Shown: positions 29,235 through 30,160 of the stretch, one piece after another
Numbering within the stretch: position 1 is the stretch's first letter
Layout of the letters: every line of letters begins with the position of its first letter
Position numbers and translations under genes: made by a program
The notes under the pieces: model-generated
Told to the model about the DNA's origin: nothing
The model's database searches: none
The model's input: the letters and a program-made list of their open reading frames with translations, nothing else
Assembly (NCBI RefSeq): GCF_002742335.1
Contig: NZ_MDGR01000007.1
Span: forward strand, 3,600,501 to 3,664,500
Length of the DNA: 64,000 nucleotides
Origin: Reichenbachiella sp. 5M10
Lineage (GTDB): Bacteria; Bacteroidota; Bacteroidia; Cytophagales; Cyclobacteriaceae
Direction: 5' to 3'

Positions 29235-29699
29235 CTATCCCAACTGAATCGGGCGGCTCATACTCTCATCCAAAGAGATGAAAGTTTCTGTCCTATCTAT
29301 ACCGTCTACTTTCTGGATCTTATCATGAAGTACTTCTCTGAGGTGATTAGTATCTCTACAATGAATCTTAATGAATATATTGTAATTGCCCGTCGTGTAA
29401 TGTATCCGTACGACCTCAGGAATCCCCTGCAGTTTCTCGACCACCGAGTCATACAAAGAGCTCTTTTGCAAATAAATCCCCAAAAAACAAGTCACATCGA
29501 ACCCTAGTTTAGAGTAATCCAACTGAAGTGTTGTACCTTTGACCACTCCCATCTCCTCGAGTTTTTTCATTCGGACATGGACTGTACCTCCAGAGACGTA
29601 CACCTTTTTAGCTATCTCCGTATATGGAGTTTTAGCGTCAATCATCAGATGAGACAAGATTTTCAAATCCACTTCATCAATTTCATAATTTTTCGCCAT
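29235..29699 (-). CDS. Lrp/AsnC family transcriptional regulator
   Basis: 154 residues. An N-terminal winged helix-turn-helix (about 5-60; ILSHLMIDAKTPYTEIAKKVYVSGGTVHVRMKKLEEMGVV) is followed by a regulatory RAM domain (about 65-150) that probably binds an amino acid. The target and ligand cannot be told from the sequence. It is transcribed alone, with a hairpin terminator at 29173-29204, and its upstream region holds palindromic sites (29701-29770) that could be autoregulatory. It lies next to, and divergent from, the tRNA-like RNA gene. Confidence 0.92.
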   Translation of the reverse strand: MAKNYEIDEVDLKILSHLMIDAKTPYTEIAKKVYVSGGTVHVRMKKLEEMGVVKGTTLQLDYSKLGFDVTCFLGIYLQKSSLYDSVVEKLQGIPEVVRIHYTTGNYNIFIKIHCRDTNHLREVLHDKIQKVDGIDRTETFISLDESMSRPIQLG

Positions 29700-29700
29700 G

Positions 29701-29770
29701 ATTCACAAGTCGTTTTATTAAATACTCAACAATTATAATCATTTATTAGGACACACATAAATATGTGAAT
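29701..29770. promoter_or_regulatory. Palindromic sites upstream of the Lrp-family gene
   Basis: A 14-bp palindrome CACATA-AA-TATGTG lies at 29754-29767, and ATTCACA (29701-29707) is matched in inverse orientation by TGTGAAT (29764-29770). Lrp-family proteins bind several such sites by wrapping DNA, so this is a plausible autoregulatory region, also shared by the promoter of the RNA unit to the right. Inference only. Confidence 0.35.
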
Positions 29771-29786
29771 GTTTTTATGAAAAATT

Positions 29787-29817
29787 TTTAATATTCCGAC
29801 GAGTTGCTATAAATTTG
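29787..29817 (+). promoter_or_regulatory. Promoter of the tRNA-like RNA
   Basis: TTTA (29787-29790), 19-nt spacer, TAAATTTG (29810-29817). Transcription would start near 29823, about 43 nt before the 5' end of the tRNA-like fold. Confidence 0.55.
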
Positions 29818-29865
29818 TAATCACAAAGGGAAAAGAAAGACGTTCTTTTTCTTCTTTTGACACAA

Positions 29866-29977
29866 TGTAGGGTGATGAAACAGGCAGCCATGCCCCCCTG
29901 TCTCGGGGGTGGAGATAAAGGATAAATCACATCTCGTGACTAACTGCTCCGTGGAGGTTCGAATCCTTCTCCTACAG
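29866..29977 (+). ncRNA. tRNA-like RNA with a long variable region, possibly a Y-RNA-like or atypical class-II tRNA
   Basis: The fold, done by hand: acceptor stem TGTAGGG (29866-29872) with TCCTACA (29970-29976), seven pairs including one G-T; D stem ATG (29875-29877) / CAT (29889-29891) with GG in the loop (29883-29884); hairpin CCCCC-CTGTCTC-GGGGG (29893-29909); then 43 nt of variable region with GGAG/CTCC (29911-29914 / 29947-29950) enclosing TCAC/GTGA (29927-29930 / 29936-29939); T stem GGAGG/CCTTC with the canonical loop TTCGAAT (29953-29969). The elbow signals (GG of the D loop, TTCGAAT) are intact. The anticodon position would read GTC, but position 37 is T and a class-II tRNA for Asp is not expected, so I do not call it a decoding tRNA. 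CCA is not encoded. A promoter and a terminator flank it. Confidence 0.7.
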
Positions 29978-30011
29978 CTATCATTTTTGGGTTAATGTTG
30001 TTTAATGAAAG

Positions 30012-30036
30012 AGTCTGGTTCTACCAGACTTTTTTC
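30012..30036 (+). terminator. Rho-independent terminator of the tRNA-like RNA unit
   Basis: A perfect 7-bp stem AGTCTGG / CCAGACT with loop TTCTA is followed by TTTTTT. It lies 35 nt after the end of the tRNA-like fold and before the start of the acyl-CoA synthetase gene. Confidence 0.9.
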
Positions 30037-30160
30037 ATTTTACCCCATCTGACCATACTCCCCTCCTTTTTCACTCCTCATTCTTTGTCTATTCGGTTTT
30101 CTATCCTCATCTTTATTGGTGAGATTTATCAAAAGAAGATCGCTCTCAGAAGACAACAAC

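Follow-up and report, generated by a model that had tools for sequence, protein, structure and literature searches.

The 64,000-nucleotide stretch of Reichenbachiella sp. 5M10 DNA analysed here (the window) carries a tRNA-like RNA on its forward strand, next to a divergently oriented gene for an AsnC/Lrp-family regulator. The features of the locus are as follows.

29235..29699, minus strand: AsnC/Lrp-family regulator, divergent neighbour (Pfam AsnC_trans_reg)
29810..29817, plus strand: TAAATTTG, which fits the Bacteroidota −7 box TAnnTTTG (motif match)
29842..29847, plus strand: GTTCTT in the leader (motif enrichment)
29866..29978, plus strand: body of the tRNA-like RNA, a 7/5 cloverleaf ending in G73-C74 (sequence and alignment; 123.4 bits with covariance model R1)
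29893..29909, plus strand: anticodon-position hairpin CCCCC-CTGTCTC-GGGGG, loop at 29898-29904 (sequence and alignment)
29911..29950, plus strand: variable arm, with stem GGAG/CTCC, internal loop and a variable distal hairpin at 29927-29939 (alignments)
29953..29969, plus strand: T arm, loop TTCGAAT (sequence and alignment)
30012..30035, plus strand: terminator-like hairpin AGTCTGGT-TCT-ACCAGACT followed by a T run (by eye)

The original prediction drew a tRNA-like cloverleaf at this place, and each of its elements is supported by the sequence and by an alignment of relatives: a 7-bp acceptor stem (29866-29872 with 29970-29976; 7/7 pairs, one of them G-U), a 3-bp D stem (ATG/CAT), a 5-bp anticodon-position hairpin (5+7+5), a two-helix variable arm within a 43-nt variable region (29910-29952) and a 5-bp T arm. 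U8 is present, and the D-T elbow signals described as kept are borne out in the sequence and in the relatives. Two details have to be adjusted. The loop TTCGAAT is there, but the T arm called perfect contains one G-U pair; the start of the RNA at 29866 stands, but the proposed end at 29977 is the discriminator, G73, and C74 extends the RNA to 29978.

Signals for expression flank the RNA and many of its relatives. Of 253 upstream regions, 125 contain TAnnTTTG no more than 90 nt from the RNA, against 10 of 253 after one letter shuffle, and the TA..TTT of the putative −7 box is kept in all eight genus relatives. The leader motif GTTCTT, which 39 of 185 leaders carry (one letter shuffle left it in 4 of 185), may be a boxA-like element, and the terminator-like hairpin recurs in genus relatives. 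We infer that the RNA is transcribed. Tandem neighbours occur at 45 of 181 loci, with spacers of 11-1978 nt, 60 of 75 being 110 nt or shorter. One locus (L123) has seven matches 13-27 nt apart, with one spacer spanning 77 masked bases; in such a short-spaced array single RNAs would have to be excised if they act singly. The trailer motif TTTGGGTTAATGTTG was dropped as a general feature, being only local (37 of 255 trailers, 3 after one letter shuffle).

Covariation and anatomy of the RNA family

Folded by itself, the window RNA is unremarkable, with a minimum-free-energy z-score of −0.42 and 63 of 200 shuffles folding as well, and its minimum-free-energy structure differs from the full cloverleaf. 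The case for the fold thus rests on comparison with relatives. A MAFFT alignment of 29 copies (A1; 28 distinct, six helices, 31 pairs) has standard pairs in 95.7% of cells, against 53.7-57.2% with slid partners, and its covariation score was reached by 0 of 500 shuffles. Changes on both sides affect eleven of its pairs, and 58 of 500 shuffles do as well or better; 14 pairs never vary and are hence uninformative. A second alignment (A4), fitted to the covariance model and drawn from contigs of named genomes, has 23 of 31 pairs changing on both sides, matched by 0 of 500 shuffles. The pairs of the 7/5 acceptor/T architecture hold in 99.6-100% of cells in A1 and A4. Covariation in relatives had been named beforehand as the check on the fold; the helices are conserved or covarying in both alignments, and the tRNA-like RNA is confirmed as a conserved, covarying family.

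Across the family, the variable arm is roughly 40-140 nt long and consists of a 4-bp stem, an asymmetric internal loop with the consensus ..GGRAYAAA / CTAACYR and a distal hairpin that is free in sequence and length; all seven counted pairs of this hairpin change on both sides in A1. U1 G2 and G73 C74 are invariant in 98/98 distinct copies, a set not chosen by loop pattern. An element GGGTWGACCAC, possibly a small GG-GUWGA-CC hairpin, sits in the distal variable hairpin of 62 of 250 member sequences, including distant families and viral contigs.

The anticodon-position loop

Most of the 289 aligned rows kept out of 331 (252 distinct, two non-members) were fetched by a pattern demanding NNTCTCG, and loop frequencies were taken from the 98 distinct copies not fetched by a loop pattern. 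The consensus for positions 32-38 is YNNUCYC: 32 is C in 89 and U in 9; 33 is U in 69, G in 17, C in 7 and A in 5; 34 is G in 81, A in 8, C in 7 and U in 2; 35 is U in 98; 36 is C in 98; 37 is U in 93 and C in 5; and 38 is C in 98. The window loop is CTGTCTC, so the reading of the anticodon position as GTC with T at 37 holds.

In loops that decode, position 33 is normally U and position 37 a purine. Since U33 is found in only 69/98 copies and 37 is a pyrimidine in 98/98, decoding is unlikely, in agreement with the earlier statement that no credible decoding loop is present; judged by its sequence, the RNA probably does not decode codons. The marks of a decoding tRNA are divided accordingly: the 7-bp acceptor, 5-bp T stem, T loop and D-T elbow are all present, and both the U33/purine 37 combination and recognition by tRNA models are missing. 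The idea that the UCUC loop might pair with the variable stem was dropped on inspection by eye, because the stem varies without keeping complementarity.

Recognition by existing models

Neither ARAGORN nor Rfam assigned the RNA to a known family. ARAGORN found 0 genes in the whole window and called 0 of 250 distinct family members when these were left unmodified. After replacement of the variable tip by a tetraloop it called 216 of 247 as tRNAs, namely 183 Asp-GTC, 19 Asp-ATC (202 Asp in all) and 14 Glu. Rfam 15 gave no gathering-score match in the window or at ten relative loci; relaxing the search to E ≤ 10 over 29700-30120 brought nine matches, all discarded, with no tRNA family among them and none near its own family's cut-off. 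There was no tmRNA match at the locus in Rfam 15, and the host genome carries a separate tmRNA (141 bits).

The bacterial Y RNAs, one of the groups to which the RNA had been compared, contain in YrlA a tRNA-like module that is a non-decoding tRNA mimic, and Rfam includes a YrlA model. The likeness lies in that non-decoding, tRNA-like module. Unlike YrlA, the RNA described here is a free-standing cloverleaf with a closed acceptor stem and a discriminator, and as no Rfam match appeared at the locus or at the ten relative loci, membership among the Y RNAs was not upheld.

The other suggested group, the allo-tRNAs, has a 12-bp acceptor domain arranged as 8/4 or 9/3, a longer variable arm and an anticodon mismatched to the body, with GUC among the common ones, according to a review (PMC7609411). 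The same review gives Clostridia, Proteobacteria and Acidobacteria as sources and mentions irregular relatives in polycistrons of soil metatranscriptomes (PMC7609411). Measured against the architecture given there, the 7/5 arrangement of our family takes the place of the defining 8/4 or 9/3, and the RNA does not fit the allo-tRNA definition. For tRNA-Sec, an 8-bp-type acceptor stem and a UCA-type anticodon are the defining traits, as is common knowledge and as stated in that review (PMC7609411). Rfam returned no tRNA-Sec match at the locus, and the 7-bp acceptor and the loop do not fit that definition either.

Relationship to the tRNAs of the host

Among nine host class II tRNAs scored with R1, tRNA-Leu(GAG) ranks first at 57.4 bits, followed by the four other tRNA-Leu (44.9-50.8), tRNA-Tyr (45.0) and three tRNA-Ser (32.9-35.0). 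The RNA resembles tRNA-Leu in its D arm, 3-bp D stem, class II variable arm and T arm. It differs in having no Leu anticodon, in G73 instead of A73, in a longer variable arm with a conserved internal loop, and in that the family escapes ARAGORN. A73 is a main determinant for LeuRS; host tRNA-Leu end in A73, and host tRNA-Ser and tRNA-Asp end in G73. Many host tRNA genes encode C74 only, and some encode CCA. On these sequence grounds the RNA may be read as a tRNA-Leu paralogue in which A73 has been exchanged for G73.

Its loop leads in another direction. The host tRNA-Asp loop is ctgtcac, differing from the window loop only at position 37. G73, G34-U35-C36, C38, G2-C71 and G10 serve as identity elements for AspRS, and the RNA shares with tRNA-Asp G73, G2-C71, U35, C36 and C38, with G34 in 81/98 copies. 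In contrast to tRNA-Asp, it has a class II body, U1-A72, a pyrimidine at 37, an unconserved U33 and no G10.

Distribution

With the 181-nt locus as DNA query, 44 of 59 relatives gave a match at E ≤ 1e-10 (hand count). Full-length copies score at least 74 bits with R1, and by hand count 212 of the 291 order genomes sampled had a best R1 match at E ≤ 2.5e-18. Because scoring was restricted to 12 candidates per genome and used strict filters, 212 is a minimum, and the 79 genomes of 291 with no member-level match are a maximum. The raw tally of 279 in this survey takes in ordinary tRNAs. In a sample of 395 genomes of the phylum, hand counts gave member-level matches in 22 genomes that belong to the class but not to the order, and in three, all of one genus, from outside the class; these counts leave aside a few matches of 61-66 bits, for instance one of 176 nt in G609, that may represent diverged members. 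A pattern scan of named genomes yielded at least 120 loci, including, among the matches listed, Hymenobacter, Pontibacter, Algoriphagus, Cyclobacterium, Chitinophaga, Terrimonas, Niabella, Lewinella and Flammeovirga. The family is thus widespread in Cytophagales and neighbouring bacteria of several orders. It occurs in about three quarters of the sampled order genomes, yet neither ARAGORN nor an Rfam search at gathering scores picks it up. No description of the RNA was found in the open-access literature as represented by titles, the starts of abstracts and part of one review (PMC7609411), and the family is apparently undescribed so far.

The window genome has one high-scoring copy and two further R1 matches below member level. 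Elsewhere copies can be numerous: in L122:5300-11300 (G014), three full copies lie among 14 partial 3'-end copies, among the matches listed, with a T-loop insert and a common trailer. Near-identical dispersed copies in G316 and similar ones in G477 (L118-L120, L127-L130) lie away from AsnC. Members scoring 92-105 bits were also found in 11 phage-like, putatively viral contigs, and 8 of these 11 stretches carry at least one ARAGORN-called tRNA gene. Collections of plasmid and phage records contained no match to the window RNA, and phage records none to a phage-contig copy.

The divergent AsnC-type regulator

The best NCBIfam model for the regulator at 29235..29699 is AsnC PRK11179, at 176 bits, below its cut-off of 227. 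Of 41 mapped loci, 21 have a divergent homologue upstream, which in 20 is the immediate neighbour. These 41 loci showed no second, non-AsnC partner common to distant families, and scanning 12 distinct neighbour proteins revealed no second shared partner. A profile search placed AsnC divergently upstream in 24 of 50 chosen loci and, among the matches listed, in 62 of 101 pattern loci, with median gaps to the open-frame edge of 125 and 131 nt, respectively. It was absent next door in 26/50 and, again among the pattern matches listed, 39/101 loci, and adjacent in 0 of 11 viral loci. The 50 loci were picked by the author, who took several from a genome, and four or more of the pattern loci coincide with them; the pattern-locus count drops 19 of 120 listed loci with less than 900 nt upstream. 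Counted by genome, linkage is seen in 25 of 38 (hand count, window included).

In ten linked genomes, the RNA-linked AsnC comes first in the search, at 57-81% identity or as the query itself, and the next AsnC paralogue reaches at most 32% identity. Nine RNA-bearing genomes that have no adjacent AsnC hold an orthologue elsewhere (58-73%). The linkage of AsnC and RNA is strong, not obligatory. The arrangement by which an AsnC-regulated gene would be recognised, a divergent, adjoining AsnC-type regulator, is present in the window.

In E. coli, an AsnC-type regulator is paired with asnA, in the control of asparagine synthesis. The asnC-asnA pair shares with our loci the AsnC-type regulator with a divergent neighbour; the differences are that the neighbour here is an RNA gene and that E. 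coli-type asnA is missing (0/10 linked genomes). Control genomes had asnA in 2 of 14, E. coli and Bacteroides ihuae. A single AspRS and a single AsnRS scored above cut-off in each of the ten linked genomes.

The stretch upstream of AsnC was also read in members of the order that R1 had missed. Four RNA-less genomes (G195, G231, G271 and G274) have an open reading frame of 317-318 aa there, starting divergently from AsnC. The four proteins share 66-81% identity with one another, and with scores of 313-329 bits all exceed the cut-off of 309 set for the NCBIfam model of asparagine synthetase A; the one from G271 also matches 3p8t, an archaeal asparagine synthetase A (E 3.5e-53). In G050 the RNA is split over two contig ends, one of them beside AsnC. 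The slot in G280 may hold a remnant of the RNA, its match (10.4 bits, E 0.11) not being significant by itself, and in G262 AsnC is present with no asparagine synthetase A block in the 801 nt fetched. By eye, L465 (G103; about 200-280 after reverse complement) has an acceptor and a T-like arm with no D or anticodon arms beside AsnC, a possible minihelix remnant of the RNA; its trailer resembles that of the full G058 RNA. Upstream of AsnC, nine loci (L121, L122, L131, L136, L138, L139, L144, L145 and L150) share a conserved gene run that resembles sufB-sufC-sufD(-sufS) in gene size.

GatB was found in 20/20 RNA-bearing genomes and in 13/13 order members that have no intact RNA, and in 0/6 genomes of the RNA-less families f26, f30 and f31. 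GatB thus fits an amidation model but does not track the RNA within the order.

Proposed role and alternatives

We tentatively favour, with somewhat less than even confidence, a processed, non-decoding tRNA paralogue that is controlled by AsnC and acts in aspartate/asparagine homeostasis. The RNA would be a paralogue of tRNA-Leu, either standing alone with a promoter and terminator of its own or grouped in short-spaced arrays, that has lost the Leu anticodon and discriminator A73 and has kept, in place of the Leu signals, U1-A72, G2-C71, G73, the U35-C36-Y37-C38 loop and the internal loop of the variable arm. It is probably excised by tRNA-processing enzymes. Control probably lies with the AsnC-type regulator, whose gene is often found about 100-160 nt away in divergent orientation, and the signal would be asparagine or a related amino acid. 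The RNA would then act through an enzyme that recognises tRNAs; the most plausible case is that AspRS aspartylates it or is occupied by it, and this step would sense or adjust the supply of aspartate and asparagine. AspRS is proposed because of the location beside AsnC and the tRNA-Asp-like loop, and charging by this enzyme is our hypothesis; processing, AsnC control and the amino-acid link are likewise what we infer from the genomic picture.

Counting against the AspRS step are the lack of G10, the U1-A72 pair, the varying position 34 and, possibly, the long variable arm; against AsnC control, the loci that have no adjacent AsnC and the score of the regulator below its NCBIfam cut-off; and against the explanation as a whole, the part of the order that does without the RNA and the failure of GatB to follow the RNA within the order. 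AsnC, and asparagine synthetase A in the place of the RNA, nonetheless provide a genomic pointer to a possible role. If true, the RNA would exemplify neofunctionalisation cleanly, as a tRNA taken out of translation and handed to an amino-acid regulator, and could uncover a new route for sensing or making asparagine.

A possible, though rather unlikely, alternative is a stable regulatory small RNA of the AsnC regulon, which would use the tRNA fold solely for processing and stability and pair with mRNAs through the exposed UCUC loop or the variable arm. The constancy of loop positions 35-38 in 98/98 copies (save U/C at 37) next to the variable 33-34, the AsnC linkage and the promoter-like and terminator-like signals would all suit such an RNA, but the fixed acceptor end and the kept D-T elbow point to tRNA-binding proteins.

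We consider it unlikely that the RNA is a decoy or guard in phage-host conflict, mimicking the tRNA-Asp loop and absorbing anticodon nucleases or modification enzymes, with phage copies doing likewise. The loop is indeed close to that of tRNA-Asp, and there are members in the 11 putative viral contigs, mostly in company with tRNA genes; the RNA is, however, chromosomal in most sampled genomes of the order and linked to AsnC, and the 12 distinct neighbour proteins include one of the PD-(D/E)XK nuclease family and no toxin-family match.

More doubtful still is an AsnC-controlled role as a dedicated carrier in RNA-dependent asparagine chemistry. Here AspRS would charge the RNA by way of G73 and the U35-C36-C38 loop, GatCAB would amidate the aspartate, and the asparagine would be freed or used outside translation, so that the RNA at the AsnC locus would replace the asparagine synthetase role of other lineages. 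The absence of asnA from the ten linked genomes, the asparagine synthetase A in the slot of the four RNA-less genomes, and GatB in 20/20 RNA-bearing genomes and 0/6 of the three RNA-less families are compatible with such a carrier, whereas GatB in 13/13 order members that have no intact RNA is neutral or speaks against it.

A translating tRNA of unusual, allo-tRNA-like shape reading GAC/GAU is very improbable: positions 34-36 are GUC in most copies, and allo-tRNAs with GUC are reported in PMC7609411, but U33 is missing in 29/98 copies, 37 is a pyrimidine throughout, 34 varies to A, C and U, and the architecture is 7/5, not 8/4 or 9/3. A functionless tRNA relic spreading as a repeat or integration site, as the dispersed copies in G316 and G477 and the partial 3' copies in G014 might suggest, is hardly credible in view of the compensatory changes, the promoter-like signals and the AsnC linkage across families.

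A second tRNA-like family

A second tRNA-like family was noticed in viral contigs, with constant ends AGTCAGGTGGCGGAATTGGTAGACGC ... TACAGGTTCGAATCCTGTCCTGACTAC, a hypervariable middle, a length of 70 to about 249 nt and an anticodon arm not evident by eye. It occurs in L282, L283, L284, L287, L288 and L290 and in the viral loci L311-L430. At least 226 three-prime ends were counted in at least 131 loci, at least 192 of them with a 5' head, and among the loci listed a single stretch carries up to nine three-prime ends.
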